In this document: piece by piece, positions 17,091 through 39,288 of the stretch | Layout: every line of letters begins with the position of its first letter | Numbering within the stretch: the first letter of the stretch is position 1 | Assembly: GCF_012396125.1 (NCBI RefSeq) | Contig: NZ_JAAXOX010000011.1 | Coordinates: forward strand, 1-64,000 | From: Cellulomonas denverensis | GTDB lineage: Bacteria; Actinomycetota; Actinomycetes; Actinomycetales; Cellulomonadaceae | Length of the DNA: 64,000 bases | Reading direction: 5' to 3' | The notes under the pieces: generated by a model | What the model was told of the DNA's origin: nothing | Databases searched by the model: none | The model's input: the letters and a program-made list of their open reading frames with translations, nothing else | Translations under genes and position numbers: made by a program

Positions 17091-18260
17091 TCACGCGATG
17101 AGCGCGTCCACCGCCTCCGGGCTGAGCACGTGGTCGACCGCCATCGCGCTGGCGCCGAGGATGCCGACCTGGGATCGGGCCTGCGAGGTGACGATCCGCA
17201 GGTGCTGGGTGGCCAGCGGGAGGGTGCGGGAGTAGACCACCTCACGGATGCCGGCGATCAGGTGTTCGCCGGCCTCGGCCAGGATGCCGCCGATCACGAT
17301 CATCGACGGGTTGAGCAGGCTGACGCAGGCGGCGAGCACGGCGCCGATCTCCCGCCCGGCCTGGCGCACGGCGCGGCTGGCGGCGAGGTCGCCGGAGCGG
17401 ACCAGGGCGACCACGTCGGCGCCGGTGGCGGCGGTCAGACCCTGGCGGGTGAGGGCGGCAGCGACCGCGTGGCCGGAGGCGACGGCCTCCAGGCAGCCGA
17501 CGTTGCCGCACCGGCAGGGCACGCCCTCGGCGCCCGGGACGGCGATGTGGCCGATGTCCCCGGCGGTGCCCTGGGCGCCGCGGCGCAGGTCGCCGTCGCA
17601 GATCACGCCGGAGCCGATGCCGGTGGCGACCTTGACGAACAGCAGGTCGTCCACGTCCGGCCAGGCGGTGCGGTGCTCGCCGAGGGCCATCAGGTTCACG
17701 TCGTTGTCGACCAGCACCGGGGCGTGCAGCTGGGCGGCCAGGATGCCGGGCACGTCGACGTCGTCCCAGGCGGGCATGATCGGCGGGTTGATCGGGCGGC
17801 CGGTGGAGTGCTCGACCGGTCCGGGCAGGCCGACGCCGACGCCGGCCAGGTCGCCGAGGTCGCGGCCGTGCTCGGCGAGCAGGGTGCGGGCGGCGGTGAC
17901 CACCCAGTCCAGGACGACCTGGGGGCCCTCGGCGATGGCGAGCGGTGACTCGGTCTCGGCCAGGACGGTGCTGCCCAGGTCGGTGATCGCGGCGCGGGCG
18001 TGGGTGGCGCCGAGCTCGACGGCGAGCACGACCTTGGCGCTGGGGCAGAACGCGAAGGTGGTCGGTGGCCGCCCGCCGGTGGAGGTGGCCTCCCCGGCGG
18101 GGGAGATCAGGCCGGCGGCCATCAGCATGTCGACCCGGGCGGCGATGGTGGAGCGGGCCTGTCCGGTGGCTGCGGCCAGGTCGGCCCGGGTCCGGGGCCG
18201 ACCGTCCCGGAGCAGCTGGAACAGCTCGCCGGCACCGGTGTGCCGCTGGGGGAGCTTCAC
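17091..18260 (-). CDS. ROK family transcriptional repressor
   Basis: A 389-residue XylR/NagC-like regulator. N-terminal winged HTH at about residues 20-48 (RTRADLAAATGQARSTIAAR), then a ROK kinase-like domain with the zinc motif CRCGNVGCLE and DNDVNLMALGEHR. The ATP-binding start reads AVELGATHARAA instead of the DxGGTK of active kinases, consistent with a regulator. The GTG at 18260 has AGGAC a few bases upstream; a GTG at 18272 is the alternative. It is divergent from the sugar importer that heads the ebo-containing region and is its most likely regulator. Confidence 0.9.
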   Translation of the reverse strand: MKLPQRHTGAGELFQLLRDGRPRTRADLAAATGQARSTIAARVDMLMAAGLISPAGEATSTGGRPPTTFAFCPSAKVVLAVELGATHARAAITDLGSTVLAETESPLAIAEGPQVVLDWVVTAARTLLAEHGRDLGDLAGVGVGLPGPVEHSTGRPINPPIMPAWDDVDVPGILAAQLHAPVLVDNDVNLMALGEHRTAWPDVDDLLFVKVATGIGSGVICDGDLRRGAQGTAGDIGHIAVPGAEGVPCRCGNVGCLEAVASGHAVAAALTRQGLTAATGADVVALVRSGDLAASRAVRQAGREIGAVLAACVSLLNPSMIVIGGILAEAGEHLIAGIREVVYSRTLPLATQHLRIVTSQARSQVGILGASAMAVDHVLSPEAVDALIA

Positions 18261-18563
18261 GACGTCCTGCACCCCGTCAGTGAACCACGAAGTGACGTCC
18301 GCGTCGGCCGCTTTCGTCCAAGCTGTGCGGCACTTGTGCTTGGCAAGCGGCAAAAGGTCCCGTACCGTCCTGCTTGTCCGACTCGTCCGAGTTCGACAGT
18401 TTGTCAGGGCCGCGATGACGCGCCCCGCCCGCAAGCCGGACCAAGCCCACCCCATGACCTGGGGTGCGCTGTCCCTCACTTCTGTCGGTCACGATCACAT
18501 AACGCGCCGACGAACTCCTGACTTTTGATTGACAGCCGACGAAACTCTGGTGAGGATCGCCAC
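18261..18563. promoter_or_regulatory. Divergent control region between the ROK gene and the sugar importer operon
   Basis: Three hundred bases without a gene, less GC-rich than the surroundings. It holds two short palindromes that could be ROK operators: GCTTGGCAAGC (18338-18348) and ACTCGTCCGAGT (18378-18389). A TTGACA is present at 18529-18534 but has no convincing -10 before the ATG at 18564. Assignments are tentative. Confidence 0.35.
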
Positions 18564-20090
18564 ATGGTCAACGACGACCCCCAGCCGCTGCTCCAGATGC
18601 GCGGCATCGTGAAGGAGTTCCCGGGTGCCCGGGCGCTCGACGGAGTGGACCTGGAGGTCCTGCCCGGCGAGGTGCACTGCCTGCTCGGGCAGAACGGCGC
18701 CGGCAAGTCCACCCTGATCAAGATCCTGGCCGGGGCGCACCAGCCCACCGAGGGCACCGTCCTGGTCGACGGCCGCCCGGTCACCATCGCCACCCCGGTC
18801 GCCGCGCTCAAGCTCGGCATCGCCACCATGTACCAGGAGCTGGACGTGGTCGGCGGGCTCACCGTCGCGGAGAACGTCTACCTCGGCCACGAGCTCGCCA
18901 CCGCCGGTGTCCAGCACCGCCGCGAGGCCCGCCGGCACACCCGGGAGCTGCTGCGCCGCCTCGGCCACGCCGAACTGTCACCCAACCGGGAGGTCGGCAC
19001 GCTGTCCGCCGCCGCCCAGCAGGTGGTGTCGATGGCCCGGGCGCTGTCCCACGACGCGCGGGTGATCATCATGGACGAGCCCTCCGCGGTGCTGGACTCC
19101 GACGAGGTGCAGAACCTGTTCCGGGTGGTGCGCGAGCTCACCGCGTCCGGGGTCGCCATCGTCTACATCTCGCACCGGATGGAGGAGATCCGGGCGATCG
19201 GCGACCGGATCACCGTGTTGAAGGACGGCCGCACCGTCGCCGCGAACCTGCCGGTGGCGGACACCCCCACTGCCGACCTGATCAAGCTGATGACCGGCCG
19301 GAACGTGGAGTACGCCTTCCCGGCCCGTGTCGCGCGCGACACCGAGGGCGCTGCGGCGCCGGTGGTGCTCGACGTCGAGGGGCTGGCCCTGCGCGGCGTG
19401 TTCCGGGACGTCGGCTTCCAGGTCCGCGCCGGGGAGATCGTCGGGCTGGCCGGCCTGGTCGGCTCCGGCCGCTCGGAGATCCTGGAGACCGTCTACGGTG
19501 CCCGCCGGGCCACCGCCGGGACCGTCCGGGTCGGCGAGCGCCGGCTCCGGCCCGGGTCGGTGGACGCGGCGGTCCGGGCCGGGATCGGGCTGGCCCCCGA
19601 GGAGCGCAAGAGCCAGGGGCTGCTGCTCGACGAGCCGGTCTACCGCAACATCACCCTCGCCAGCTTCGGCCGGTTCGCCAGCGGGGGACTGCTGAACGAG
19701 CGCGCCGAACGCGCCGCCGCCACCGAGCAGGCCCGGTCGCTCGACCTGCGCCCGGCCGGGGTGGACCGGCCGATCCGCACCTTGTCCGGCGGCAACCAGC
19801 AGAAGGCGATGCTCGCCCGCTGGCTGGTGCACGGCTGCCGGGTGCTGCTGCTGGACGAGCCGACCCGCGGGGTGGACGTCGGGGCCCGGGCCGAGATCTA
19901 CGCCCTGATCCGGCGGCTGGCGGACTCCGGCGCCGCCGTGGTGGTGGTGTCCAGCGAGATCCCCGAGGTGCTCGGTCTGGCCGACCGGGTGCTGGTGGTG
20001 TCCGAGGGCCGGGTGGTGCACACCGGGCCCGCCGATCAGATCGACGAGCACGCCGTGCTCGACATGGTGATGGAAGGAAGTGCGGCGTGA
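18564..20090 (+). CDS. Sugar ABC transporter ATP-binding protein (RbsA/MglA type)
   Basis: A 508-residue double ATPase. Domain 1 has Walker A GQNGAGKS (42-49) and Walker B VIIMDEPS; domain 2 has LSGGNQQK and VLLLDEPT, with the usual non-canonical second Walker A (GLVGSGRSE). The start at 18564 leaves GAGG about eight bases upstream; an ATG at 18525 would add 13 residues. First gene of the operon opposite the ROK regulator and overlapped by the permease gene by four bases. Confidence 0.93.
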   Translation: MVNDDPQPLLQMRGIVKEFPGARALDGVDLEVLPGEVHCLLGQNGAGKSTLIKILAGAHQPTEGTVLVDGRPVTIATPVAALKLGIATMYQELDVVGGLTVAENVYLGHELATAGVQHRREARRHTRELLRRLGHAELSPNREVGTLSAAAQQVVSMARALSHDARVIIMDEPSAVLDSDEVQNLFRVVRELTASGVAIVYISHRMEEIRAIGDRITVLKDGRTVAANLPVADTPTADLIKLMTGRNVEYAFPARVARDTEGAAAPVVLDVEGLALRGVFRDVGFQVRAGEIVGLAGLVGSGRSEILETVYGARRATAGTVRVGERRLRPGSVDAAVRAGIGLAPEERKSQGLLLDEPVYRNITLASFGRFASGGLLNERAERAAATEQARSLDLRPAGVDRPIRTLSGGNQQKAMLARWLVHGCRVLLLDEPTRGVDVGARAEIYALIRRLADSGAAVVVVSSEIPEVLGLADRVLVVSEGRVVHTGPADQIDEHAVLDMVMEGSAA

Positions 20091-21121
20091 GCGGTCAGAC
20101 AGCGGCGGCGCCCCCGGCGGCCGAGCAGGCCCGGGTGGAGAAGCAGGCGGCCCCGCACCAGCGGTTCAGCTTCGGCGGGGCCGGGATGCGCAACATCGGG
20201 CTGATCATCGCCCTGGTGGTGCTCGGGGTGATCGGGTACGCCACCTCCGGCACCCGGTTCGCCAGCCTGGACAACCTGACGGTGATCGTGTCCACCGCAT
20301 CGATCATCGGGGTGCTGAGCATCGGGATGACCTTCGTGATCACCGCCGGGGGGATCGACCTGTCGGTGGGGTCGGTGCTCGGACTGGCCTCGGTGTGGGC
20401 GACCACGCTGGCCACCCAGACCATGGCCGACCAGTACGGCTGGATCGTGATGGTCGGCTGCGCGCTGGCGGTCGGTGTGGTCGCCGGCCTGATCAACGGG
20501 GTGCTGATCGCCTACGGCAAGGTGGTCGCCTTCATCGCCACCCTGGCCATGCTGGTCGCCGCCCGCGGCCTGGCCGAGCTGATCGCCCAGCGCCGCACCC
20601 AGCTGGTCACCGTCGACAGCTTCGAGTCCACCTTCAAGGGCGACCTGCTCGGGGTGCCGAAGATCGTCTGGATCTTCGCGCTGGTCGCGGTCGCCGGCTG
20701 GTTCCTGCTCAACCGCACCACCTTCGGCCGCCGGACCGTGGCCGTGGGTGGCAACCCGGAGGCCGCCCGGTTGGCCGGCATCCCGGTCAAGCGGCACACG
20801 ATGCTGCTGTACGCGCTCGCCGGTCTGGCCGCCGGCATCGCCGCGGTGATGATGCTGGCCCGCACCGGCGCCGGTTCCTCCACCAACGGCCAGCTGTACG
20901 AGCTGGACGCCATCGCCGCGGTGGTGGTCGGCGGCACCCTGCTGGCCGGTGGCCGCGGCACGATCGTCGGCACGGTGCTGGGGGTGCTGATCTTCGCCAC
21001 CCTGACCAACCTGTTCATCCAGAACAACCTGGACTCCTCGGTCCAGGCCGTCGCCAAGGGCGCGATCATCATCGCCGCCGTCCTGCTGCAACAGCGCTTC
21101 GTCTCCCGCACCCCCGGCTGA
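20087..21121 (+). CDS. Sugar ABC transporter permease (RbsC type)
   Basis: A 344-residue membrane permease with GMTFVITAGGIDLSVGSVLG at about residues 84-103, and TFGRRTVAVGGNPEAARLAG in the cytoplasmic coupling loop. The cytoplasmic N-terminus is Ala/Pro/Gln-rich and longer than usual. The GTG start lies within the ATPase stop (GTGA). The 76-bp interspersed repeat follows in the gap before the binding-protein gene. Confidence 0.93.
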   Translation: MSGQTAAAPPAAEQARVEKQAAPHQRFSFGGAGMRNIGLIIALVVLGVIGYATSGTRFASLDNLTVIVSTASIIGVLSIGMTFVITAGGIDLSVGSVLGLASVWATTLATQTMADQYGWIVMVGCALAVGVVAGLINGVLIAYGKVVAFIATLAMLVAARGLAELIAQRRTQLVTVDSFESTFKGDLLGVPKIVWIFALVAVAGWFLLNRTTFGRRTVAVGGNPEAARLAGIPVKRHTMLLYALAGLAAGIAAVMMLARTGAGSSTNGQLYELDAIAAVVVGGTLLAGGRGTIVGTVLGVLIFATLTNLFIQNNLDSSVQAVAKGAIIIAAVLLQQRFVSRTPG

Positions 21122-21140
21122 CGCGCGCCCGCCCCTGCTT

Positions 21141-21216
21141 CGCCGAGTTCGGTACTCCCGCTCCGGCTTCGGTACCCGCGCCACCGACCTCGTGGCCGGA
21201 GCACCGAGGTCGCACC
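21141..21216 (-). repeat. 76-bp interspersed repeat, copy 2 (inverted)
   Basis: Reverse complement of the repeat at 286-361 with five transitions in 76 bases. Read on the minus strand it holds CGACCTCG and CGAGGTCG separated by 12 bases, a perfect 8-bp hairpin that has one G-T mismatch in copy 1. It sits between a permease gene and its binding-protein gene, 61 bp before the latter's ATG, so it would lie in the transcript. Confidence 0.75.
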
Positions 21217-21277
21217 GCCCCGACACGTCCCTACCCACCCCTGCCCGCATTCCGGACATCCATCGAAGGAGATCGTC

Positions 21278-22318
21278 ATGTCCGTCCGCCGTTTGATCCC
21301 CCTGGCCGCCGTGGCCGGGCTTGTCCTGGTCGGCTGCACGTCGAACACCCCCGCCGAGGACACCGACGACACCGGTGGCGGGGCGGTGAACCAGGCCGTC
21401 TCCGACAACGACGAACCCGGCGACACCGTCGTGATCGGCTTCTCCGCCCCGGCCGCCGACCACGGCTGGATGGGCGCGATCACCACCGCCGCCCAGGCCG
21501 AGGCCGACACGTACGAGGACGTCGAGCTCCGGGTCGCCGAGGGCACCAACGACGTGAACCTGCAGATCAGCCAGATCGAGCAGTTCATCAACGACGACGT
21601 CGACGCCATCGTGCTGCTGCCCTTCGACGGGGGCGCCCTGACCGACGTCGCCACCAAGGCGATGGACGCCGGCATCCCGGTGATCAACGTCGACCGGGAG
21701 TTCTCCAGCCCGTTCGCCTCCCGCACCACGGTGCTGGGCGACAACTACGGCATGGGCGTCTCGGCCGGGACCTACATCTGCGAGCAGCTCGGCGACCAGC
21801 CGGACGCGGTGGTGGCCGAGATCGCCGGCATCGACTCGCTGCCGCTGACCCAGGACCGGTCGCAGGGCTTCGCCGACGCGCTGGACGGTTGCGGGCTGGA
21901 GGTCGCCAACCGGGTGGCCGCCGACTTCACCGTCCAGGGCGGGGAACAGGCGGCGGCGAACCTGCTGCAGGCCGCCCCGGAGATCGACGCGATCTGGAAC
22001 CACGACGACGACCAGGGTGTCGGCGTGCTGGCCGCGATCGAGAACGCCGGCCGGGACGAGTTCTTCCTGGTCGGTGGCGCGGGCTCGGCGAACATGATGC
22101 GCGAGATCCAGGACCCGGAGTCGGTGGTCAAGGCCACGGTCATCTACCCGTCCACCCAGGCCGCCGACGGCATCAAGCTCGCCCGGCTGGTGGCGCACGG
22201 CGACCGTTCGCTCAGCGACCTGGCCTCGTTCAGCGTGCCGCGCACCGTGCAGCTGTACGCCCCGGTGGTCACCGAGGAGAACGTCGACGAGTACATCGAC
22301 TCGGCCTTCGAGTCCTGA
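21278..22318 (+). CDS. Sugar ABC transporter substrate-binding lipoprotein (ribose/YtfQ type)
   Basis: A 346-residue lipoprotein: signal peptide with lipobox LVLVGC (Cys20), then an acidic linker and a Peripla_BP_4 fold (VVIGFSAPAADHGWMGAITT, DAIVLLPFDGGALTDVATKA, and IPVINVDREFSSPFASRT). The IPVINVDRE pattern recalls galactofuranose and inositol binders, but ligand specificity cannot be fixed by eye. AAGGAGA precedes the ATG. It completes the importer of the ROK-controlled operon and is followed by a 15-bp hairpin. Confidence 0.92.
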   Translation: MSVRRLIPLAAVAGLVLVGCTSNTPAEDTDDTGGGAVNQAVSDNDEPGDTVVIGFSAPAADHGWMGAITTAAQAEADTYEDVELRVAEGTNDVNLQISQIEQFINDDVDAIVLLPFDGGALTDVATKAMDAGIPVINVDREFSSPFASRTTVLGDNYGMGVSAGTYICEQLGDQPDAVVAEIAGIDSLPLTQDRSQGFADALDGCGLEVANRVAADFTVQGGEQAAANLLQAAPEIDAIWNHDDDQGVGVLAAIENAGRDEFFLVGGAGSANMMREIQDPESVVKATVIYPSTQAADGIKLARLVAHGDRSLSDLASFSVPRTVQLYAPVVTEENVDEYIDSAFES

Positions 22319-22321
22319 GCT

Positions 22322-22358: not shown

Positions 22359-22379
22359 GACCACGGAAGGAGCCCGTCG

Positions 22380-23561
22380 ATGGACGAGGCACACGGCGGC
22401 CGCACGCTCGGCGTCGGGATGGTCGGCTACGCCTTCATGGGCGCGGCGCACTCCCAGGCCTGGCGGACCGCACCCCGGTTCTTCGACCTGCCGCTGGCCC
22501 CGCGGATGCGGGTGCTGGCCGGCCGGGACCCCGGCGCGGTGAAGGCCGCGGCGGAACGGCTCGGCTGGGAGCAGACCGTCACGGGCTGGCCCGAGCTGCT
22601 GGACCGCGACGACGTGGACCTGGTGGACATCTGCACCCCGGGCCACACCCACGCGGAGATCGCGATCGCCGCCCTGGACGCGGGCAAGCACGTGCTGTGC
22701 GAGAAGCCGTTGGCCAACACCCTGGCCGAGGCGGAGGCGATGGTGGCCGCCGCCGAGCGTGCCGCCGCCCGCGGGGTGCGCTCGATGGTGGGCTTCACCT
22801 ACCGCCGGGTGCCCGCGGTGCAGCTGGCCCGCCAGCTGGTGGCGGACGGGCGGCTAGGCGAGATCCGGCACGTGCGGGTGCAGTACCTGCAGGACTGGCT
22901 GGTCGACCCGCAGGCGCCGTTGACCTGGCGGCTGGACAAGCAGCTGGCCGGCTCCGGTGCCCTGGGCGACATCGGGTCGCACGCGGTGGACCTGGCCCAG
23001 TTCGTCACCGGGCAGGCGCTGACCGGGGTGGCCGCCGCGCTGGAGACCTTCGTCACCGAGCGGCCCTACCCGGCCGGCGGTCCCACCGGTGGGCTGGTGG
23101 CCGCGCCCGGCGACACCACCGGGCCGGTCACGGTCGACGATGCCGCGGTGTTCCTGGCCCGGCTGTCCGGCGGGGGACTGGGGGTGTTCGAGGCCACCCG
23201 GTTCGCCACCGGGCGCAAGAACGCGCTGCGGATCGAGGTGAGCGGGTCGGCGGGGTCGCTGGCCTTCGACTTCGAGGACATGAACGTGCTGCAGTTCTTC
23301 GACGGGCAGGACGACGTGCAGGGTTTCCGGCGGGTGCTGGTCACCGAGCCGCAGCACCCGTACATCGCCGCCTGGTGGCCCGCCGGTCACGGCCTGGGCT
23401 ACGAGCACGCCTTCACCCACCAGGTGGTCGACCTGGTGGGCGCGATCGCCGCGGGCACCGACCCGGCACCGTCCTTCGCGGACGGGCTGGCGGTGCAGCG
23501 GGTGCTGGACGCCGTGGAGCGTTCGGCCGCCGACGACAGCCGCTGGACGGCGGTCGGCTGA
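22380..23561 (+). CDS. Gfo/Idh/MocA family NAD(P)-dependent oxidoreductase
   Basis: A 393-residue sugar or cyclitol dehydrogenase. The Rossmann start is GVGMVGYAFMGAAHSQAWR (about residues 10-28), followed by the family motif CEKPLANTLAEAE with its catalytic Lys-Pro. DIGSHAVDLAQFVTG lies in the substrate-binding sheet. Members oxidise or reduce hydroxyls on sugars, myo-inositol or glycosides; with adjacent TIM-barrel proteins this recalls inositol catabolism and 3-keto-glycoside chemistry (inference). GGAAGGAG precedes the ATG at 22380. Confidence 0.92.
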   Translation: MDEAHGGRTLGVGMVGYAFMGAAHSQAWRTAPRFFDLPLAPRMRVLAGRDPGAVKAAAERLGWEQTVTGWPELLDRDDVDLVDICTPGHTHAEIAIAALDAGKHVLCEKPLANTLAEAEAMVAAAERAAARGVRSMVGFTYRRVPAVQLARQLVADGRLGEIRHVRVQYLQDWLVDPQAPLTWRLDKQLAGSGALGDIGSHAVDLAQFVTGQALTGVAAALETFVTERPYPAGGPTGGLVAAPGDTTGPVTVDDAAVFLARLSGGGLGVFEATRFATGRKNALRIEVSGSAGSLAFDFEDMNVLQFFDGQDDVQGFRRVLVTEPQHPYIAAWWPAGHGLGYEHAFTHQVVDLVGAIAAGTDPAPSFADGLAVQRVLDAVERSAADDSRWTAVG

Positions 23562-29521: not shown

Positions 29522-29528
29522 CCGGCAC

Positions 29529-30773: not shown

Positions 30774-30862
30774 CCCCGATGCCGGACCTCGCCGGCTCCC
30801 GTCCCGTCCCGGGGCTCCGCCGCACCCACCGCGCGCCCCGTGCCCGCTTCGAAGGAGAAGAC

Positions 30863-31870
30863 ATGCGACCGATCACCCTGTTCACCGGCCAGTGGGCCGA
30901 CCTGCCGTTCGAGAAGGTGGCCGAGCTGGCCGCCGGCTGGGGCTACGACGGCCTGGAGATCGCCTGCTGGGGCGACCACCTGGACCCGTGGCGCTGGGAC
31001 GACGACGACTACCTCGACTCCCGGCGGGAGATCCTGGACCGGTACGGCCTGAAGGTCTGGGCGATCTCCAACCACCTGAAGGGCCAGGCAGTCTGCGACG
31101 ACCCGATCGACCAGCGCCACCAGGACATGCTCTCGCCGCGGGTCTGGGGTGACGGCGACCCGGAGGGGGTGCGCCGCCGGGCCGCCGAGGAGATGCAGCA
31201 CACCGCCCGGCTGGCCGCCAAGCTCGGCGTCGACACCGTGGTCGGCTTCACCGGCTCCGCGATCTGGAAGTACGTGGCGATGTTCCCGCCGGTGCGCGCC
31301 GAGACGATCGAGGCCGGCTACCAGGACTTCGCGGACCGGTGGAACCCGATCCTGGACGTCTTCGACGAGGTGGGTGTCCGCTTCGCGCACGAGGTGCACC
31401 CCAGCGAGATCGCCTACGACTACTGGACCACCGTGCGCACCCTGGAGGCGATCGGCCACCGCCCGGCCTTCGGCCTGAACTGGGACCCCAGCCACATGGT
31501 GTGGCAGGACCTGGACCCGATCGGCTTCCTGTGGGACTTCCAGGACCGGATCTACCACGTGGACTGCAAGGACACCCGCAAGCGGATGCGCAACGGCCGC
31601 AATGGGCGGCTCGGCTCGCACCTGCCCTGGGCGGACCCGCGCCGGGGCTGGGACTTCATCTCCACCGGCCACGGCGATGTCCCCTGGGAGGACGCCTTCC
31701 GGACGCTGAACACGATCGGCTACGCCGGCCCGATCTCGGTGGAGTGGGAGGACGCCGGGATGGACCGGCTGCTCGGTGCCCCGCAGGCGCTGGAGTTCGT
31801 CCGGTCACTGGCCTTCGACGCCCCCGACGCGGCCTTCGACTCGGCGTTCTCCACCCGGGAGGAGGCGTGA
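30863..31870 (+). CDS. Sugar phosphate isomerase/epimerase-like TIM-barrel protein
   Basis: A 335-residue cytoplasmic AP-endonuclease-2-fold protein. It begins ITLFTGQWADLPFEKVAELA and carries likely metal-binding stretches VRFAHEVHPSEIAYDY, AFGLNWDPSHMVWQ and RIYHVDCKDT, plus PISVEWEDAG near the end. It resembles IolE/YcjR-type isomerases or epimerases used in inositol and keto-sugar pathways. Start at 30863 with GAAGGAGAA. The last codons overlap the GTG of the next gene (GTGA), tying it to the inositol-phosphate-synthase-like and ebo genes. Confidence 0.9.
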   Translation: MRPITLFTGQWADLPFEKVAELAAGWGYDGLEIACWGDHLDPWRWDDDDYLDSRREILDRYGLKVWAISNHLKGQAVCDDPIDQRHQDMLSPRVWGDGDPEGVRRRAAEEMQHTARLAAKLGVDTVVGFTGSAIWKYVAMFPPVRAETIEAGYQDFADRWNPILDVFDEVGVRFAHEVHPSEIAYDYWTTVRTLEAIGHRPAFGLNWDPSHMVWQDLDPIGFLWDFQDRIYHVDCKDTRKRMRNGRNGRLGSHLPWADPRRGWDFISTGHGDVPWEDAFRTLNTIGYAGPISVEWEDAGMDRLLGAPQALEFVRSLAFDAPDAAFDSAFSTREEA

Positions 31871-32985
31871 GCACCGGCCTGTGGCTGATCGGCGCCCGCG
31901 GCTCGGTCGCCACCACCGCCGTGCTCGGCCTGGCCGCCCTGGCCCGGGGAAACGCCGGGCCGGAGGGCTGCGTCACCGCCGGCTGGCCCGGGCTGACCGA
32001 CTGGGACCGGATCGTGGTCGGCGGGCACGACGTCAGCCACGTGTCGCTGGTCAAGCGCGCCGAGACCCTGGTGGACGCCGGGATGATCCCGGCCGCCCTG
32101 CTGACCGCCGCCCGGGACGACCTGGAGCTGGCCGACGCCGAGGTCCGGCCCGGCTACGCCACCCTGCCGCCCGGCCGGTCGCAGCAGCAGGAGGCCGAAC
32201 GCCTGGCCGCCGACCTCGCCGCCTTCCGCGACCGGCACGGCCTGGCCCGGGTGGTGGTGATCGACCTGTCCTCCACCGAGCCGCCGCACGACACCACCGG
32301 CTTCACCGTCGAGGCACTGACCGAACCGGACCGGGTGGTGCTGCCGCCGTCCTCGGTCGCCGCCTGGGCGGCCCTGCTGGCGGGCAGCCCGTACGCCTGC
32401 TTCACCCCGTCCACCGGCATGGTCCCGCTGCTCGACCTGGCCCGGGAGTCCGGGGTACCGGTCGCCGGGCAGGACGGCAAGACCGGGCAGACCTGGCTGC
32501 GCACCGTGCTGGCCCCGGCCTTCACCGACCGGGGGTTGCGGGTGCTGTCCTGGGCCGGTGCGAACCTGCTCGGCGGCGGCGACGGTGCCACCCTGGCCGA
32601 CCCGGAGGCGGTCCGGTCCAAGCTGGCCTCCAAGACCCGCGGCCTGCGCGACCTCACCGGCACCGACGTCACCCCGCTGCACATCGACAACGTGCCCGAC
32701 CTCGGCGACGTCAAGGTCGCCTGGGACCACGTGCACGTGCAGGGCTTCCTCGGCTCCCGGATCACCCTGCAGACCACCTGGAGCGCCTACGACTCGATGC
32801 TGGCCGCCCCGATGGTGCTCGACCTGGCCCGGCTGCTCGACCTGGCCGACCGGGCCGGACTGGCCGGGGTGGTGCCGGAGCTGGGCTTCTTCTTCAAGGA
32901 CCCCTGGGCCAGCGACCAGCACCGGGCGGCCGATCAGGCGGCGGCGCTGCGGGACTGGGCGGAGCGGACGGCGGCCGCCCTGTGA
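31867..32985 (+). CDS. Inositol-3-phosphate-synthase-like NAD-dependent cyclase
   Basis: A 372-residue protein of the myo-inositol-phosphate synthase fold. Evidence: N-terminal Rossmann loop LIGARGSVATT (about 7-17), catalytic-type segment GQDGKTGQTWLRTVL, WAGANLLGGGDGATL and DNVPDLGDVKVAWDHV, and the C-terminal LAAPMVLDLARLLDLADRAG. The family converts glucose 6-phosphate to inositol 3-phosphate with NAD. Whether this divergent member makes inositol phosphate or another cyclitol is unknown. It starts within the stop of the TIM-barrel gene and its stop overlaps the prenyltransferase start. It stands in an ebo operon that lacks EboD, the dehydroquinate-synthase-like cyclase. Confidence 0.85.
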   Translation: MSTGLWLIGARGSVATTAVLGLAALARGNAGPEGCVTAGWPGLTDWDRIVVGGHDVSHVSLVKRAETLVDAGMIPAALLTAARDDLELADAEVRPGYATLPPGRSQQQEAERLAADLAAFRDRHGLARVVVIDLSSTEPPHDTTGFTVEALTEPDRVVLPPSSVAAWAALLAGSPYACFTPSTGMVPLLDLARESGVPVAGQDGKTGQTWLRTVLAPAFTDRGLRVLSWAGANLLGGGDGATLADPEAVRSKLASKTRGLRDLTGTDVTPLHIDNVPDLGDVKVAWDHVHVQGFLGSRITLQTTWSAYDSMLAAPMVLDLARLLDLADRAGLAGVVPELGFFFKDPWASDQHRAADQAAALRDWAERTAAAL

Positions 32986-34007
32986 CCGGACCGCTGCTGT
33001 ACGGCGACCCGGCCCGCTACCGCCCGGCGCCCACTCTGGCCGACCACCTGGAGCTGGTCCGGGCCCCCGCCGTGCTGACCGTCCTGGGCGACACCCTCGC
33101 CGGTTCCGCCGCCGCCGGGCACCCGTGGACCGTGCGCCGGGCCGCCCTGCCGCTGGCCTCGGCCTGCCTGTACTCCGGCGGGATGGCCCTCAACGACTGG
33201 GCCGACCGGGAGCTGGACGCCACCGAGCGCCCGGAACGCCCGATCCCCTCCGGCCGGGTCACCCCGCGGCGCGCGCTGACCGTGGCCACCGGGTTGGGTG
33301 CGGCCGGGATCGCGCTGGCCGCGGTCGGCGGTGGCGTCCGGTCGCTGGCGATGGCGGTGCCGCTGGCCACCGGGGTGTGGCTGTACGACGCCGTGCTCAA
33401 GGACGGTCCCGCCGGTCCCGCCACGATGGCCACCTGCCGAGGGCTGGACGTGCTGATGGGCGCCGGTGCCGGCCGGTTGCGCGCCGCCGCCCCCGCCGCC
33501 TTCACCGTCGCCGCGCACACCGCCGGGGTCACCTGGCTGTCCCGCGGCGAGGTGCACGGCAGCACGGTCCGGGACGCCCGCGCGGTGGCGGCGGTCAGCG
33601 CGGGTGTCACGGTGGCGACCGCCCTGGCCGCGCTCGGCAGCGTGCGCGCCGCTGGGCGTACGGCCGGCACGGGGCGCACGGCCGTCGCCGGGTCCGTCGC
33701 ATCGGCACTCGGCTCCCGGCCCGCCGTGGCCGGTCGTCGCCCCGTTCGCACCGCCGCCCGGGCCGGGGCGCTGGCCGCCACGGTCGCCTACGCCGCCGCG
33801 GTGCTCCCGCCGCAGCTCGCCGCCGCTCGGCGACCGACCGCCGACCTGGCCCGGGCCGCGACCGGTGCCGGCATCCGCGCGATGATCCCGCTCCAGGCCG
33901 CCTGGGCCGCCCGGTCCGGTTCCCCGGCCGCCGCCGCGGTGATCGGCGTGGCCGGTGCCGCGGGTGTCCTGCTTCGCCGCGGCACCCGGGCGGTGAGCGA
34001 GACATGA
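32982..34007 (+). CDS. eboC: UbiA-type prenyltransferase, EboC / SCO3242 family
   Basis: A 341-residue polytopic membrane protein of the UbiA superfamily, which transfers a prenyl group to an acceptor. The first Asp-rich motif reads LNDWADRELDATERPERPIP with the RPIPSGR continuation (about residues 64-88). A weaker second Asp motif is YDAVLKDG. About seven to nine hydrophobic segments are present. A Thr/Arg/Ala-rich loop around residues 215-255 is less conserved. It overlaps both neighbours by four bases. Its place between a cyclitol-forming enzyme and EboA suggests lipid attachment of the cluster's metabolite (inference). Confidence 0.85.
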   Translation: MTGPLLYGDPARYRPAPTLADHLELVRAPAVLTVLGDTLAGSAAAGHPWTVRRAALPLASACLYSGGMALNDWADRELDATERPERPIPSGRVTPRRALTVATGLGAAGIALAAVGGGVRSLAMAVPLATGVWLYDAVLKDGPAGPATMATCRGLDVLMGAGAGRLRAAAPAAFTVAAHTAGVTWLSRGEVHGSTVRDARAVAAVSAGVTVATALAALGSVRAAGRTAGTGRTAVAGSVASALGSRPAVAGRRPVRTAARAGALAATVAYAAAVLPPQLAAARRPTADLARAATGAGIRAMIPLQAAWAARSGSPAAAAVIGVAGAAGVLLRRGTRAVSET

Positions 34008-34900
34008 CCGCCTGGACCCTCGGCTACGGCACCAACGGCCTCGGCGACCACCCGCTGCCCCAGGCGCTGGACCTGATCGCCGACAAGGGCTATGGCGCGG
34101 TCGCGCTCACCCTCGGCTTCCCGCACCTGGACCCGTGGGCGCCACCCGGCGACCTGGACCGGCTGCGCCGTCGGCTGGACGCGCTCGGCCTGCGGGTGGT
34201 GGTGGAAACCGGCACCCGGTTCCTGCTCGACCCGCGCCGCAAGCACGCGCCGGCCCTGGTGGACGAGGACGCGGACGCCCGGATCGACTACCTGCGCCAG
34301 GCGATCCGGGTCGCGGGGCAGCTCGGTGCCACCACGGTGCAGTTCTTCTCCGGCGTGCTCGGCCCTGGCGACGACCCCGCGGCCGCCCACGACCGGCTGC
34401 GGCACCGGGTCGATGGGCTGGCGCGCGCTGCGGCCGAACAGGGCATCCGGCTCGCCCTGGAACCCGAACCCGGCATGGTGGTGCAGACCGTCGGCGACGC
34501 CCTGGCCCTGCGCGGCGCCCTCGGCGATCCACCCGCGCTCGGCCTGACCGTCGACATCGGCCACTGCCTGGTGGTCGAGCCCGGGGGAGTAGCGGGCGCC
34601 CTGGCCGCCGCCGCCCCGGCGCTCGCCCACGTCCAGATCGACGACATGCCCCGCACCCACCACGAGCACCGCCCGTTCGGCGAGGGCGACCTGGACCTGG
34701 CCGCGGCGCTCGCGACCTTGGACCGCACCGGCTACACCGACGTCGTCTCGGTCGAACTGCCCCGGCACTCCTGGGACGCCCCCCGCCTGCTGCAGCACAG
34801 CCGCGACGCCATCCGCGCCGCCACCGCGCCCACCCTTGCAGTGCCACCCGACGCCACCGCGTCGGCCGGTCCGATCGCGCCCGCGCCCGCGCCGCCCTGA
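34004..34900 (+). CDS. Sugar phosphate isomerase/epimerase-like TIM-barrel protein in the ebo operon
   Basis: A 298-residue AP-endonuclease-2-fold protein. It begins LGYGTNGLGDHPLPQALDLI; metal-ligand candidates lie in GIRLALEPEPGMVV, GLTVDIGHCLVV and LAHVQIDDM, and the end contains DVVSVELPRHSW. The last 30 residues are Ala/Pro-rich and probably disordered. The ATG overlaps the prenyltransferase stop. It could act on the same intermediate as the cyclase-like protein two genes upstream. It is separated from eboA by 47 bases. Confidence 0.88.
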   Translation: MTAWTLGYGTNGLGDHPLPQALDLIADKGYGAVALTLGFPHLDPWAPPGDLDRLRRRLDALGLRVVVETGTRFLLDPRRKHAPALVDEDADARIDYLRQAIRVAGQLGATTVQFFSGVLGPGDDPAAAHDRLRHRVDGLARAAAEQGIRLALEPEPGMVVQTVGDALALRGALGDPPALGLTVDIGHCLVVEPGGVAGALAAAAPALAHVQIDDMPRTHHEHRPFGEGDLDLAAALATLDRTGYTDVVSVELPRHSWDAPRLLQHSRDAIRAATAPTLAVPPDATASAGPIAPAPAPP

Positions 34901-34947
34901 TCCGGGACGCCCAACCGCCCACTCCCTCCGACACCCCAGGAGCAGCC

Positions 34948-35814
34948 ATGACGCCGACGACGCCGTCCCCGGCCCGCACCGACCACGACCCCGACGCCCC
35001 CGGCGGCCCGGCGGCCGGAACCGCCGCCGCGATGCCCGGCCCACGCCCCACCCAGGCCACCGCCCGGGCCGGAACCGCCGCCGCGATGCCCGGCCCACGC
35101 CCCACCCAGGCCACCGCCCGAGTCATCCCCGCGGCAGACCCGCCCCAGCCCCCGACCGCCGCCGCGCCGCCCGTGGTGACCGCCGCCCTCGCCCCGCCGG
35201 CCGGCTGGGCCGCCGAGGCCGTGGCCGCGGTGCGCCGGGACCCGAGCACCCTGGCCACCCACCTCGCCTGGGCCGCCCGGCGCACCTCGCGGGAGGCCCT
35301 GCGCCCCGCGACCGACCCCGGTGGGACGGTGCACGGCACGGTGGCCGACGCCGCCCGGGCCGCCCTGGTGGTCGCCGCCTTCGACTCCGGCCTGGACCCC
35401 GCCGCGTTGGCCGGCGAGCTGCGCGACCGGTACCGCGAGGGCGACTCCGGCGAGCGCCGTGGGGTGCTGCGCGGGCTGGACGCCCTGACCGTGCGCGGCC
35501 CGCTGCCGCCGGAGCTGGTCGCCGCCGGCCGGGAGCTGGCCGCCGACGCGCTGCGCACCAACGACCCGTCGCTGGTCGCCGCCGCCACCGGGCCGTTCGC
35601 CGCCGCCCACCTGGATCAGCACACCTGGCGGCACGCGGTGGTGAAGCTGGTGTTCCAGCAGGTCAGCCTGGACGCGGTGGCGGGCCTGACCGAACGCGCC
35701 GATGCCGAGCTGGCCCGGATGGCCGGCGATCTGGCCGCCGAGCGCCGCGCCGCCGGGCGCACCGTCCCCGATGACCTCGCCCGGATCGCCGGGCCCCGGA
35801 ACCAGGAGTCCTGA
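34948..35814 (+). CDS. eboA: EboA domain-containing protein
   Basis: A 288-residue soluble protein; EboA has no known biochemical activity but is part of the ebo metabolite-traffic module. The conserved part is about residues 100-280, ending with the family-like pattern TWRHAVVKLVFQQVSLDAV, RADAELARMAGDLAAERRAA and GRTVPDDL. The first 90 residues are Ala/Pro/Thr-rich and contain an exact duplication of an 18-residue unit (AGTAAAMPGPRPTQATAR). CAGGAGCAGCC precedes the ATG. The stop and the start of eboB share one base. Confidence 0.85.
   Translation: MTPTTPSPARTDHDPDAPGGPAAGTAAAMPGPRPTQATARAGTAAAMPGPRPTQATARVIPAADPPQPPTAAAPPVVTAALAPPAGWAAEAVAAVRRDPSTLATHLAWAARRTSREALRPATDPGGTVHGTVADAARAALVVAAFDSGLDPAALAGELRDRYREGDSGERRGVLRGLDALTVRGPLPPELVAAGRELAADALRTNDPSLVAAATGPFAAAHLDQHTWRHAVVKLVFQQVSLDAVAGLTERADAELARMAGDLAAERRAAGRTVPDDLARIAGPRNQES
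35014..35121 (+). repeat. Tandem 54-bp duplication inside eboA
   Basis: Copies 35014-35067 and 35068-35121 differ at a single base (the last). The unit is a multiple of three, so the frame is kept and 18 residues are duplicated in the disordered N-terminal extension. Confidence 0.9.
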
Positions 35815-36683
35815 TGCGCATCCTCGACCCGCACCTGCACATGACCAGCCGCACCACCGACGACTACGAGGCGCTGTACGCCGCCGGGGTCCGGGCGGTG
35901 GTGGAACCGGCGTTCTGGCTGGGCCAGCCGCGGACCTCGGTGGGCTCGTTCGTGGACTACTTCGACGCACTGATCGGCTGGGAGCGGTTCCGGGCCGCTC
36001 AGTTCGGGATCCGGCACCACGCCACCATCGGGCTGAACCCCAAGGAGGCGAACGACCCGCGCTGCCGGGAGGTGCTGGAGGTGATCCCGCGCTACCTGAC
36101 CAAGGAGGGCGTGGTCGCGGTGGGGGAGCTGGGCTACGACGCGATGACGCCGGAGGAGGACGAGGTCTTCGCCGCGCAGCTCGCGATGGCGCTGGACGCG
36201 GACCTGCCCGCGCTGGTGCACACCCCGCACCGGGACAAGCTGGCCGGCACCCGCCGCACCCTGGACGTGGTCCGGGAGGCCGGGCTGACCCCGGACCGGG
36301 TGCTGGTGGACCACCTGAACGAGACCACGGTCGGCCTGGTCCGGGAAGCCGGGGCGTGGGCGGGCTTCTCGATCTACCCGGACACCAAGATGGACGAGGT
36401 CCGGATGGTGGCGATCCTGCGCGAGTACGGGCTGGACCGGATGATCGTGAACTCGGCCGCCGACTGGGGGCGGTCGGATCCGCTGAAGACCTGGCGCACC
36501 GGGATGACGATGCTGGAGGCGGGCTTCACCGAGGACGACGTGGACCGGGTGTTGTGGCGCAACCCGGTGGAGTTCTTCGGGGCGAACCTGATCCTGGAGC
36601 CGGTGCCGGGGTTCGTCGCCGGGCAGGTACCGGCGCCGGCCGAGTTCGAGGGCTCCTCCGTGCTGCGCGGCGTGCGGGCATGA
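35814..36683 (+). CDS. eboB: TatD-like metal-dependent hydrolase, EboB
   Basis: A 289-residue amidohydrolase-fold protein. The N-terminal metal motif is DPHLHM (H7, H9), followed by Glu in VAVGELGYDAM, His in LPALVHTPHRDK and in VLVDHLNETTV, and Asp in VNSAADWGRSD, a full set of putative metal ligands of the TatD/PHP-like class. EboB proteins belong to the ebo module; their substrate is not established. Starts on the last base of the eboA stop (TGATG) and overlaps the following gene, so it is translationally coupled. Confidence 0.9.
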   Translation: MRILDPHLHMTSRTTDDYEALYAAGVRAVVEPAFWLGQPRTSVGSFVDYFDALIGWERFRAAQFGIRHHATIGLNPKEANDPRCREVLEVIPRYLTKEGVVAVGELGYDAMTPEEDEVFAAQLAMALDADLPALVHTPHRDKLAGTRRTLDVVREAGLTPDRVLVDHLNETTVGLVREAGAWAGFSIYPDTKMDEVRMVAILREYGLDRMIVNSAADWGRSDPLKTWRTGMTMLEAGFTEDDVDRVLWRNPVEFFGANLILEPVPGFVAGQVPAPAEFEGSSVLRGVRA

Positions 36684-36694
36684 GGGGGCGCGGG

Positions 36695-37885
36695 ATGTTG
36701 CTGTCCTACTGCACCAACGTGCACCCGGCCGAGGACCTGGACGGGGTGATCGCCCAGCTGGCGGCCTATGCCGGGCCGGTCCGCCGGGCTGCGGGGCTGG
36801 ACACCCTGGGCGTCGGGCTGTGGCTGCCGGCCGAGCTGGCGCACCGGCTGGACGGGTCGGCCGCCGACCGGGACCGGTTGCGCGATGCGCTGGCCGAGCA
36901 CCGGCTGACCGTGCACACCCTGAACGCCTTCCCGTACGGCGGCTTCCACGCCGACGTGGTGAAGCTGGCGGTCTACCAGCCGACCTGGGCGGATCCGGTG
37001 CGGGCGGAGTACACCCTGGCCTGTGCCCGGGTGCTGGCCGACCTGCTGCCCGAGGGGGCCGCCGGGTCGATCTCCACCCTGCCGCTGGGCTGGCGCGAGG
37101 GCTGGACGGCGCAGGACGACCAGGCCGCCACCGCCGCGCTGGCCCGGGTGTCCGCCGAGCTGCGCGCGCTGCCGCGGACCGTGCGGCTGGCGATCGAGCC
37201 GGAGCCGGGCTGCATCCTGGACACGGTGGACGACGTGGTCGACTGGCTCGCGGCCCGCACCGACCGGATCGACCCCGAGCTGGTCGGGATCTGCCTGGAC
37301 ACCTGCCACCTGGCGACCTCCTTCGCCGATCCGGTGCAGGCGGTGCGCCGGATCCGGGACGCCGGGCTGCGGGTGGTGAAGGTCCAGGCGTCGGCGGCAT
37401 TGCAGGTGGACGACCCGTCGGACCCGGCGGCCCGGGCAGCGGTGGCCCGGTTCGCCGAGCCGCGCTACCTGCACCAGACCCGGGAGCAGGGGGCGGACGG
37501 CGTGCTCCGGGTGGACGACCTGCCGCAGGCGCTGGACACCCTGCCCGCCGCCGGACCGTGGCGGGTGCATGTGCACGTGCCGTTGCACGCCCGGCCCGCC
37601 GCGCCCCTGTCCGCCACCACCGATGTGTTGCGCACCGCGGTCGGCGCGGTGGCCCGGACCCCGCACGGCGACGAGGCGCATCTGGACGTGGAGACCTACA
37701 CCTGGTCGGTGCTGCCCCCGGAGCTGGCGGCGCGTGCGGAGTCCGACCTGGTGGCCGGGATCGCGGCCGAGCTGCGCTGGGCGACCGAGCACCTGCTGCC
37801 CGCCGACCTGTGGGCCGCCGACCGGCCGGTCCGCCCGGTGCCGGTGCCCGAACCCGGTGCCTCGAAGGTCAGGAGGTCGGCATGA
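36695..37885 (+). CDS. eboE: Metabolite traffic protein EboE (TIM-barrel)
   Basis: A 396-residue AP-endonuclease-2-like protein characteristic of ebo clusters. It begins LLSYCTNVHPAEDLDGVI, has the conserved TVHTLNAFPYGGFHADVVK segment, AIEPEPGCILDTVDDVVDW, GICLDTCHLATSF and WRVHVHVPLH, giving several candidate metal ligands. The ATG at 36695 is preferred because AGGGGG lies six bases upstream and the family starts close to this point; an ATG at 36680 overlapping the eboB stop would add five residues. Cytoplasmic, no signal peptide. Confidence 0.88.
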   Translation: MLLSYCTNVHPAEDLDGVIAQLAAYAGPVRRAAGLDTLGVGLWLPAELAHRLDGSAADRDRLRDALAEHRLTVHTLNAFPYGGFHADVVKLAVYQPTWADPVRAEYTLACARVLADLLPEGAAGSISTLPLGWREGWTAQDDQAATAALARVSAELRALPRTVRLAIEPEPGCILDTVDDVVDWLAARTDRIDPELVGICLDTCHLATSFADPVQAVRRIRDAGLRVVKVQASAALQVDDPSDPAARAAVARFAEPRYLHQTREQGADGVLRVDDLPQALDTLPAAGPWRVHVHVPLHARPAAPLSATTDVLRTAVGAVARTPHGDEAHLDVETYTWSVLPPELAARAESDLVAGIAAELRWATEHLLPADLWAADRPVRPVPVPEPGASKVRRSA

Positions 37886-39288
37886 GACCGGTGCTGCTGC
37901 TCGACGTGGTCGGGCTGACCCCGCGCGCGCTGGCGCACATGCCCCGGCTGAGCCGGCTGGCCTCCGGCGGCTGGCAGTCCCGGCTGGACACCGTGCTGCC
38001 GGCGGTCACCTGCTCGGTGCAGTCGACGATGCTGACCGGCCTGGCCCCGGCGCAGCACGGCGCGGTCGGCAACGGCTGGTACTTCCGGGAGCTGGGGGAG
38101 GTGCACCTGTGGCGGCAGCACAACCGGTTGGTCACCGGGGAGAAACTGTGGGAGACCGCCCGCCGCGCCGACCCGGGCTACACCGCGGCCAACGTGTGCT
38201 GGTGGTACGCGATGGGGATGTCCACCGACGTCACGGTCACCCCGCGGCCGGTCTACCACGCGGACGGCCGCAAGTCGCCGGACGCCTACGTCCGCCCCCA
38301 GGCACTGCACGACGAGCTGACCGGGCGGTTCGGCGACTTCCCGCTGTTCCAGTACTGGGGCCCGACCGCCTCGATCGTCTCCACCCGATGGATCGTGGCC
38401 GCGACCCGGCACCTGCTGGCCACCCGGGACGACGCGCTGACCATGGCCTACCTGCCGCACCTGGACTACGACCTGCAGCGCTTCGGTCCGCTGGACCCCC
38501 GGGCCGATGCCGCCGCCGCCGAGCTGGACACCGCCCTGGCCCCGCTGCTGGACGACGCCGAGGCCCGCGGGATCACGGTGCTGGTGGTCTCCGAGTACGG
38601 CATCGAGCCGGCGACCACCCCGGTGGACGTGAACCGGTTGCTGCGGTCGGCCGGGCTGCTGGAGGTGTACGTCCAGGACGGGCGTGAGCAGCTGGACCCG
38701 TGGACCTCGCGGGCGTTCGCGGTGGCCGACCATCAGGTGGCCCACGTCTACGTCCGCGACCCCGGCGACCTGCCCCGGGTGAGCGCCCTGTTGCGCGGAC
38801 TGCCCGGGGTGGACCTGGTGCTGGACCGGGCGGCGCAGGCCGGGTTCGGCCTGGACCACCCGAATGCCGGCGAGCTGGTGCTGGTTGCCGAGCCCGGTGC
38901 CTGGTTCACCTACTACTTCTGGCTGGACGACGACCGGGCACCCGACTACGCCCGCGGCGTGGACATCCACCGCAAGCCCGGCTACGACCCGGCGGAGCTG
39001 TTCTTCGATCCGGGCGACCGGCTGGCGAAGGCCCGGGCCGGACTCAACCTGGTGCGCAAGAGGCTCGGCCTGCGCTACGCGATGTCCACGACACCGCTCG
39101 ATCCGAGCTGTGTCCGCGGCACCCACGGGCGGCTGCCGGCCTCCGACGCGGACGCCCCGGTGATCCTGTGCTCGCAGGCTGACGTGCCCCCGGTGGTGGC
39201 CGGCCGGCTGTCCTCCGGCGGGGTGCCGGCGGCGGCGGTGAAGGCTGCCGTGCTGGAGCTGCAGGGGCTCGGGACGCGGGTCGGCTGA
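37882..39288 (+). CDS. eboF: Nucleotide pyrophosphatase/phosphodiesterase-like protein, EboF
   Basis: A 468-residue alkaline-phosphatase-superfamily enzyme. The N-terminus LLLDVVGLTPRALAHMPRLS is followed by the substrate-entry pattern SVQSTMLTGLAPAQHGAVGN (nucleophile Thr/Ser region), YLPHLDYDLQRFGP with metal-ligand Asp/His, VVSEYGIEPA and FAVADHQVAHVYV. This is the phosphodiesterase-type member of ebo clusters. Cytoplasmic by sequence. It overlaps the eboE end, has AGGAGG before the ATG, and is the last gene of the operon, followed by a weak hairpin (39293-39318). Confidence 0.87.
   Translation: MRPVLLLDVVGLTPRALAHMPRLSRLASGGWQSRLDTVLPAVTCSVQSTMLTGLAPAQHGAVGNGWYFRELGEVHLWRQHNRLVTGEKLWETARRADPGYTAANVCWWYAMGMSTDVTVTPRPVYHADGRKSPDAYVRPQALHDELTGRFGDFPLFQYWGPTASIVSTRWIVAATRHLLATRDDALTMAYLPHLDYDLQRFGPLDPRADAAAAELDTALAPLLDDAEARGITVLVVSEYGIEPATTPVDVNRLLRSAGLLEVYVQDGREQLDPWTSRAFAVADHQVAHVYVRDPGDLPRVSALLRGLPGVDLVLDRAAQAGFGLDHPNAGELVLVAEPGAWFTYYFWLDDDRAPDYARGVDIHRKPGYDPAELFFDPGDRLAKARAGLNLVRKRLGLRYAMSTTPLDPSCVRGTHGRLPASDADAPVILCSQADVPPVVAGRLSSGGVPAAAVKAAVLELQGLGTRVG

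Follow-up and report, generated by a model that had tools for sequence, protein, structure and literature searches.

A MIPS-type ebo gene set adjoining genes for sugar import and a secreted sugar dehydrogenase in Cellulomonas denverensis

The first 64,000 nucleotides of contig NZ_JAAXOX010000011.1 of Cellulomonas denverensis (the window; the host genome comprises 4.0 Mb in 21 contigs of high G+C content) contain a cluster in which ebo genes lie next to genes for sugar import and sugar oxidation. A ROK-family gene on the minus strand faces 16 plus-strand genes (18564-39288; Table 1) in the order rbsA, rbsC, rbsB (an ATP-binding cassette, or ABC, sugar importer), a Gfo/Idh/MocA oxidoreductase (Gfo), a secreted GSDH propeller, a xylose-isomerase-like TIM barrel with a twin-arginine translocation (Tat) signal (Tat-TIM), a WxL-like and a WxLIP-like protein (the WxL pair), a second TIM barrel (TIM1), a myo-inositol-1-phosphate synthase (MIPS)-like cyclase, a UbiA prenyltransferase, a third TIM barrel (TIM2), EboA, EboB, EboE and EboF. 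The arrangement, an ebo set that has a MIPS-type cyclase and is linked with a secreted sugar dehydrogenase, is conserved in parts; searches of the open-licence literature listed no paper whose title or abstract describes either the exchange of EboD for a MIPS-like enzyme or the link between GSDH and ebo genes. We tentatively read the ROK-headed operon, at slightly less than even confidence, as uniting a split pathway for 3-keto-glycosides with an ebo set of the MIPS type whose lipid would serve the secreted dehydrogenase.

A MIPS-like cyclase in the ebo gene set

Genes were called from open reading frame ends and codon-position G+C and were assigned to families with Pfam and NCBIfam profiles, whereas secretion and Tat signals were assigned by eye from the protein sequences. 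All genes named in an initial annotation of the window were recovered in the order it gave. EboE, the EboA domain and, adjoining EboE, an EboB-type hydrolase and an EboF-type phosphodiesterase identify the set as ebo. As in the ebo operon (EboA-F) of cyanobacteria, Bacteroidota and eustigmatophyte plastids, EboA, EboB, a UbiA, EboE and EboF are contiguous, but the window differs in its MIPS-like cyclase without EboD, its extra TIM2 and the attached genes for sugar import and secreted sugar oxidation. The sugar phosphate cyclase EboD is described as the cyclitol-forming ebo member (PMC5133447), and no dehydroquinate (DHQ)-synthase-type match was found among the cluster proteins with either profile collection. 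Since it lacks EboD, the predicted set is a variant distinct from the six-gene type, and the MIPS-like cyclase probably stands in for EboD. The main text of the paper that defined ebo does not contain the word inositol, and it mentions an EboA-TIM barrel fusion in Actinobacteria as data not shown (PMC5133447).

Membership of the cyclase in the MIPS superfamily follows from its Pfam NAD_binding_5 and Inos-1-P_synth domains and its catalytic lysines. Among solved structures, the cyclase comes closest to the myo-inositol-1-phosphate synthase 1u1i (179.5 bits), which we take to be the Archaeoglobus fulgidus enzyme (Ino1). Residues K252, K256, K283, K344, N233 and D309 align to A. fulgidus Ino1 and are invariant in an alignment of 15 proteins; the catalytic residues of the archaeal enzyme are presumably four lysines, one asparagine and one aspartate. 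The possibility that the protein is the housekeeping, mycothiol-type Ino1 was rejected, as it scores 25.7 bits on TIGR03450 (cut-off 638) and a separate gene of the genome scores 717 bits. The neighbouring UbiA reaches 144 bits on the EboC model (cut-off 250), and its NDxxD and YDxxxK positions are invariant in an alignment of 13, these motifs being common to the distant ebo UbiA proteins of loci L143 and L145. A UbiA-family member inside ebo clusters has also been described in marine bacteria, where Ubi-297 farnesylates quinoline substrates such as 8-hydroxyquinoline-2-carboxylic acid (8-HQA; PMC9235831); the window enzyme passes the SCO3242 model.

The distribution of the cyclase was assessed in named EboE loci, taken as the best 80 of 585 confirmed actinobacterial matches. 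Among the 63 of these that were testable, 50 carry a MIPS-like gene and 13 do not; in seven of the 13 no other cyclase is evident before UbiA in the long open reading frames, which were read by eye and not by profile search. Locus L116, which is not one of the 13, has no room for a cyclase at this place. With the EboD of L044 as query, tblastn over loci L023-L138 returned L044 only, an actinobacterium of the phylum sample in which EboD is present without a MIPS match. Outside the actinobacteria, the 10 plasmid records examined, out of 16 listed, comprise nine with EboD but without a MIPS match and one, from Gemmatirosa kalamazoonensis, with MIPS but without an EboD match. MIPS and EboD were never found together in the stretches examined, which are parts of genomes. 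Replacement of EboD by an unrelated enzyme that forms cyclitols lends independent support to the proposed isoprenoid-cyclitol product, and the prenylated cyclitol suggested by the initial annotation is plausible, as a cyclitol cyclase beside a UbiA fits it. In L044, a type 2 isopentenyl-diphosphate isomerase (18621-19661) directly follows EboF of the EboD-type set.

Partners of the ebo genes in the genus, the phylum and beyond

Two samples were used for co-occurrence, one of 60 genomes from the genus and one of 396 from the phylum, both of which include the window's own genome in the GSDH and EboE counts. EboE is patchy in the genus (10 of 60 genomes); in the phylum it lies above cut-off in 18 genomes and below it, in two pieces, in G338, giving 19 ebo-positive genomes. 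The GSDH domain was found in 11 genus genomes, comprising all 10 ebo-positive ones and one of the 50 ebo-negative ones, the latter at 50% identity (p 1e-10). Across the phylum it occurs in 19 genomes, namely 15 of the 19 with ebo and four of the 377 without (Fisher p 3e-20). Fisher tests ignore kinship, and the safer version is the genus-collapsed one, which gives 8 of 11 against 2 of 226 (p 3e-11). Physical linkage is not universal: in G327 GSDH, Tat-TIM, the WxL pair and the importer share one contig and the ebo genes lie well inside another (L162, L040), and in G221 GSDH and ebo occupy two different long contigs. Linkage cannot be judged in G156 and G220, where contigs are short or the genes lie close to their ends.

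Tat-TIM at 44% identity or more was found in 10 of the 396 genomes, all of them ebo-positive, with weaker matches (35-39%) in eight more, three of them ebo-positive. TIM1 behaves differently. It occurs in 38 of the 60 genus genomes, in all 10 with ebo and in 28 of 50 without (p 0.01); in the phylum it has matches at E 1e-60 in 53 genomes, and at 70% identity or more it is found in 15 of 19 ebo-positive genomes and in 8 of 377 others. A free-standing set of ROK, rbsA, rbsC, rbsB, Gfo and TIM1, with no GSDH or Tat-TIM matches, was seen in ebo-less genomes (L148-L152, L155, L157 and L159), other TIM1 neighbourhoods (L153, L154, L156, L158 and L160) being partial or different. The importer-Gfo-TIM1 set is thus an independent module that is common without ebo, and GSDH is the closer ebo partner. 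The genome of the window also encodes a TIM1 paralogue of 67% identity outside the window (C7:63048-64043; surroundings L168).

Within the genus, 6 of the 10 carriers (the window genome, G009, G015, G028, G037 and G043) keep the arrangement fully or to the contig end, and short contigs cut it in G017, G035, G038 and G041. In other families order and direction vary. Six Streptomyces-like genomes (L043, L046, L047, L048, L049 and L050) have the importer, Gfo, TIM1 and GSDH adjoining MIPS, TIM2, EboA, EboB, EboE and EboF, with a UbiA match in five of the six and a ROK gene (39-41% identity) farther upstream. In Agromyces (L061), Microbacterium (L081) and Georgenia (L086) the importer, Gfo and TIM1 lie downstream of ebo, and in a Cellulomonas locus (L127) GSDH, TIM1, Gfo and rbsB run up to the end of the stretch. 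Partners were also counted in the 59 named loci of at least 21 kb, 46 of which carry MIPS; these stretches often stop short of the importer, which makes the counts lower bounds. Among the 46, GSDH is present in at least 31, Tat-TIM in at least 27 (many of them weak, at 25-45% identity), TIM1 at 65% identity or more in at least 27, Gfo at 58% or more in at least 15 and rbsB at 48% or more in at least 13. Each gene of the WxL pair was found in one of the 59 loci, although the pair recurs in G327, from another genus of the same order; the pair is not a general ebo partner. Relatives thus bear out the proposed link in an altered form, in which GSDH tracks ebo more closely, the importer-Gfo-TIM1 set is also common without ebo and the WxL pair is rare. 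The proposed wiring of ebo to sugar uptake and oxidation finds backing in other families, where genes for the importer, Gfo, TIM1 and GSDH again neighbour ebo, but is weakened by the independence of the importer set.

A similar gene mix appears in another phylum. The plasmid stretch of Gemmatirosa (Gemmatimonadota; L187) encodes MIPS (38%), UbiA (44%), TIM2 (41%), EboB, EboE, EboF, two Gfo proteins and TIM1 (57%), along with a cytochrome c, a TIM barrel with 34% identity to Tat-TIM, two 3-keto-disaccharide hydrolases and two DUF7133 proteins, one with HEAT repeats and the second also passing the GSDH cut-off (26.6 against 25). No tblastn match to the window GSDH and no EboA match were found in this stretch. 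Though a single record, it provides the strongest independent sign that MIPS-type ebo sets go with 3-keto sugar chemistry. An annotated PQQ (pyrroloquinoline quinone)-dependent dehydrogenase after the ebo genes of a Salipiger plasmid (L183) and an EboD-type set in Ketogulonicigenium that contains a sugar isomerase and two Gfo genes point the same way; a sugar ABC importer lies near ebo in Azospirillum. The UbiA of the K. vulgare set is annotated as two overlapping pieces (L142, 11108-11955). In Mycetohabitans and Aureibacter, which belong to two phyla, a long hypothetical protein and a ferritin-like protein precede the ebo genes (L185, 2054-5072; L186, 3064-6124).

Gene junctions and an operator-like motif

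The genes of the cluster are closely packed. Overlaps of 4 bases occur at rbsA/rbsC, TIM1/MIPS, MIPS/UbiA, UbiA/TIM2, EboB/EboE and EboE/EboF, EboA and EboB overlap by 1 base, and the remaining eight gaps measure 17 to 165 bases, so that the description of a nearly one-stranded cluster with short or overlapping junctions is borne out by 16 plus-strand genes with seven overlaps. In the stretch between TIM1 and EboF, the only one of the seven junctions without an overlap is a gap of 47 bases, the other six overlapping by 4 or 1 bases. No sigma-70-like promoter was found at 20000-39700 (0.2 expected by shuffling), and the one terminator-like match in this interval, within TIM2, compares with 2.6 expected. 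The ROK protein combines a ROK domain with an N-terminal helix-turn-helix (HTH) motif; its start is assumed to be the GTG at 18260, the frame being open to 18479.

Table 1. Features of the ROK-headed cluster and their profile or structure matches
Feature	Position	Strand	Evidence or remark
ROK-family repressor, winged HTH	17091..18260	-	PF00480 197 bits; HTH_24 22.5 bits, cut-off 21.9
Operator-like inverted repeat, 2 mismatches	18332..18357	.	copy at same place in L038
Operator-like inverted repeat directly before rbsA, 2 mismatches	18521..18546	.	better copies at this place in relatives
RbsA-type sugar ABC ATPase	18564..20090	+	PF00005; best NCBIfam AraG 525 bits, below cut-off 689
RbsC-type permease	20087..21121	+	PF02653 139 bits
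RbsB-type sugar-binding protein	21278..22318	+	PF13407 143 bits
Gfo/Idh/MocA oxidoreductase, levoglucosan-dehydrogenase-like	22380..23561	+	PDB 4h3v 601 bits, 6a3f 316 bits
Secreted GSDH beta-propeller (PQQ sugar dehydrogenase fold) with PKD, CBM6 and Ig-like domains	23727..27164	+	
Xylose-isomerase-like TIM barrel (Tat-TIM), Tat-type signal (by eye), candidate 3-keto-glycoside lyase	27228..28226	+	PF01261 45 bits; PDB 8tcd 92 bits
Secreted protein, N-terminal beta-rich repeat model, weak C-terminal WxL-like part	28244..29521	+	
WxLIP-like surface protein	29610..30773	+	PF06030 30.5 bits, cut-off 27.3
TIM1, candidate 2-hydroxy-3-keto-glucal hydratase	30863..31870	+	PDB 2zds 570 bits; 8ro4 (2-hydroxy-3-keto-glucal hydratase) 119 bits
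MIPS-like cyclitol-phosphate synthase	31867..32985	+	PF07994 140 bits, PF01658 102 bits
UbiA-family prenyltransferase, SCO3242 type	32982..34007	+	NF045897 321 bits, cut-off 260
TIM2 xylose-isomerase-like barrel	34004..34900	+	PF01261 142 bits
EboA-domain protein	34948..35814	+	NF035938 140 bits, cut-off 50
EboB, TatD-like metallohydrolase	35814..36683	+	PF01026 46 bits, cut-off 27
EboE	36680..37885	+	NF035939 414 bits, cut-off 250
EboF, type I phosphodiesterase	37882..39288	+	PF01663 198 bits, cut-off 23

An inverted repeat, ACTTYTG-N12-CARAAGT, lies upstream of rbsA, at about -43, in the genus and in some relatives. The motif was built from rbsA upstream regions, which makes hits there circular, and independent evidence comes from the copies that precede MIPS or GSDH or lie close to Tat-TIM-like genes. 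The loci, 2.89 Mb in all, contain 20 sites with at most one mismatch, against none in two Markov simulations, and 35 with at most two, against one in one simulation; 32 of the 35 are found no more than 600 bases upstream of a match to ROK, rbs, Gfo, MIPS, GSDH or Tat-TIM, five of these rows being repeats from overlapping loci. Sites precede separately transcribed ebo operons in Promicromonospora sukumoe (L059, 85 bases before the MIPS match, one mismatch), Oerskovia flava (L060, 217 bases, two mismatches), Microbacterium testaceum (L081, 212 bases, one mismatch) and Cellulomonas carbonis (L127, 148 bases, two mismatches), and another stands 86 bases before GSDH in G110. This common putative operator suggests that the importer and ebo operons are co-regulated in relatives. 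Support for the shared control proposed in the initial annotation comes from the motif before importer and separate ebo operons; the imperfect copies in the window itself count against it. Within the window no further site with at most two mismatches was found before gsdh or ebo. In Lentzea (L073, 2269-2294; L076, 2263-2288) the same motif occurs with a ROK gene, together with ebo sets without MIPS and a more distant sugar-type ABC importer (rbsA 43-45%).

A candidate pathway and its rivals

The proteins of the sugar part suggest a possible sequence of reactions, each of which, as well as the role of the lipid, we infer. Outside the cell, the GSDH propeller would oxidise a glycoside at C3 and the Tat-exported TIM barrel would split the 3-keto-glycoside by elimination; the RbsABC importer would bring the elimination product into the cell, where TIM1 would hydrate it and the Gfo enzyme would reduce the 3-keto sugar. 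A 3-keto-glycoside route is proposed because TIM1 resembles 2-hydroxy-3-keto-glucal hydratase and Gfo resembles levoglucosan dehydrogenase. The levoglucosan (Lgd) pathway described in Bacillus smithii and Paenarthrobacter likewise combines an ABC sugar importer, a Gfo/Idh/MocA enzyme and xylose-isomerase-like TIM enzymes (PMC7676230, PMC10066097). The window differs from it in that Gfo falls below the cut-off of the levoglucosan dehydrogenase equivalog (NF052479, 363 bits against 650), in the attached ebo genes, and in a secreted dehydrogenase and Tat-type TIM enzyme that suggest an extracellular first half. If this part is right, the first half of the 3-keto-glycoside route lies outside the cell in actinobacteria. 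On the ebo side, the MIPS-like enzyme would cyclise a sugar phosphate and UbiA would attach a prenyl chain, giving a prenylated cyclitol that the TIM barrels, EboB and EboF may trim; this lipid would then assist the secreted dehydrogenase, acting as a membrane carrier, a cofactor or an electron acceptor. What was observed is the gene content, the active-site residues kept and the co-occurrence. With a secreted dehydrogenase as a steady partner and a motif resembling an operator, this is a setting in which the role of ebo becomes measurable.

The GSDH protein passes as a member of its propeller family and keeps the PQQ-type residues H158 and R254-N255-P256, which presumably have the roles they have in PQQ-type enzymes. 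PqqE, by which alone PQQ synthesis was judged, is over cut-off in 2 of 28 ebo-positive genomes. In an alignment of 27 GSDH relatives, at least 90% keep adjacent cysteines followed by a histidine (domain residues 156-158; window 24312-24320). Of the two WxL-like proteins that had been annotated, the one at 29610 passes the WxLIP model and its partner at 28244 stays below the cut-off of the Pfam WxL model (16.7 bits against 25), its predicted structure being confident for about residues 22-262 only.

Several observations weigh against the proposed service of the lipid to the dehydrogenase. Given its PQQ-type residues, the cofactor of GSDH may simply be PQQ. The association is imperfect in both directions, with ebo lacking GSDH in G209, G377 (82% complete), G411 and G440, and GSDH lacking ebo in G090, G317, G406 and G412, of which G317 and G412 are fragmented assemblies. 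Moreover, GSDH and ebo share one operon in all six genus genomes that can be viewed, and their joint presence there may reflect one gain. None of the 13 named loci without MIPS reaches the thresholds set for GSDH, Tat-TIM, TIM1 or Gfo, the Gfo of L088 being 51% identical, and no sugar dehydrogenase is annotated in the stretches of Roseivivax, a second Salipiger plasmid, Azospirillum, Deinococcus (two), Mycetohabitans and Aureibacter. On a Streptomyces plasmid, a MIPS-type ebo core stands beside nonribosomal peptide synthetase (NRPS) genes (L147, 1-25107). As to the motif, both sites of the window carry two mismatches, and its own genome has five such sites against four in a reversed control; a search for operator-like sites upstream of rbsA in the six Streptomyces-like genomes gave none, as did one upstream of the G327 ebo operon (L040).

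The strongest competitor, which we nonetheless hold to be rather unlikely, is metabolite export, whereby the ebo lipid would carry a substrate, a cofactor precursor or a secreted metabolite out for surface proteins and sugar import would merely be co-regulated. An ebo lipid carrier has been proposed for scytonemin, and in its favour are also the ebo core in the NRPS cluster and another MIPS-type core on a Streptomyces plasmid, directly preceded by a ScyD/ScyE-family gene (NHL repeat match; L146, 5942-7141) with a multicopper oxidase nearby. On the other hand, the 16 genes include no secondary-metabolite genes besides ebo, and the steadiest partner is a sugar dehydrogenase. In the scytonemin cluster of Nostoc the ebo genes work with the periplasmic ScyE; ebo and scyE mutants are reported to accumulate the same monomer, which in ebo mutants stays cytoplasmic (PMC6282210). 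The window has no scytonemin genes, and its secreted partner is the GSDH propeller. A common thread may be that a secreted propeller-type protein depends on the ebo lipid for a reaction that takes place at the membrane or outside it. The ebo genes occur across many phyla and in algal plastids. A broader conjecture, which we think distinctly unlikely, is that secreted propeller oxidoreductases generally (GSDH here, ScyD/ScyE in scytonemin and Streptomyces loci, and PQQ-type or DUF7133 proteins elsewhere) would use the prenylated cyclitol made by the ebo pathway as a cofactor or as their electron acceptor in the membrane, with EboD and the MIPS-like enzyme as interchangeable ring-formers; if true, it would unite the scattered contexts of ebo.

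Still less probable is the version of the initial annotation, in which an imported sugar or cyclitol would be oxidised and then built into the prenylated cyclitol. The importer, Gfo and TIM1 do share the operon, the operator-like motif is common to some ebo operons, and TIM1 and Gfo show weak likeness to IolE and IolG, below cut-off, but the importer set is frequent without ebo, both in the genus and as free-standing loci. MIPS enzymes use glucose 6-phosphate, and therefore no special import would be needed for the ebo product. Finally, a chance fusion of two unrelated modules by transfer, kept by linkage, would account for the single arrangement of the six genus carriers with long enough contigs and for the patchiness of ebo, but it is very improbable and was set aside, given co-occurrence across several families in varied orders and orientations, partly on separate contigs, the common motif before split operons and the similar gene mix in Gemmatirosa.

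Downstream of EboF, the window encodes a secreted pullulanase-type enzyme (39486-43307; TIGR02103, 1014 bits), and a gene of this type also adjoins EboF in two loci of the genus (L037 and L039).

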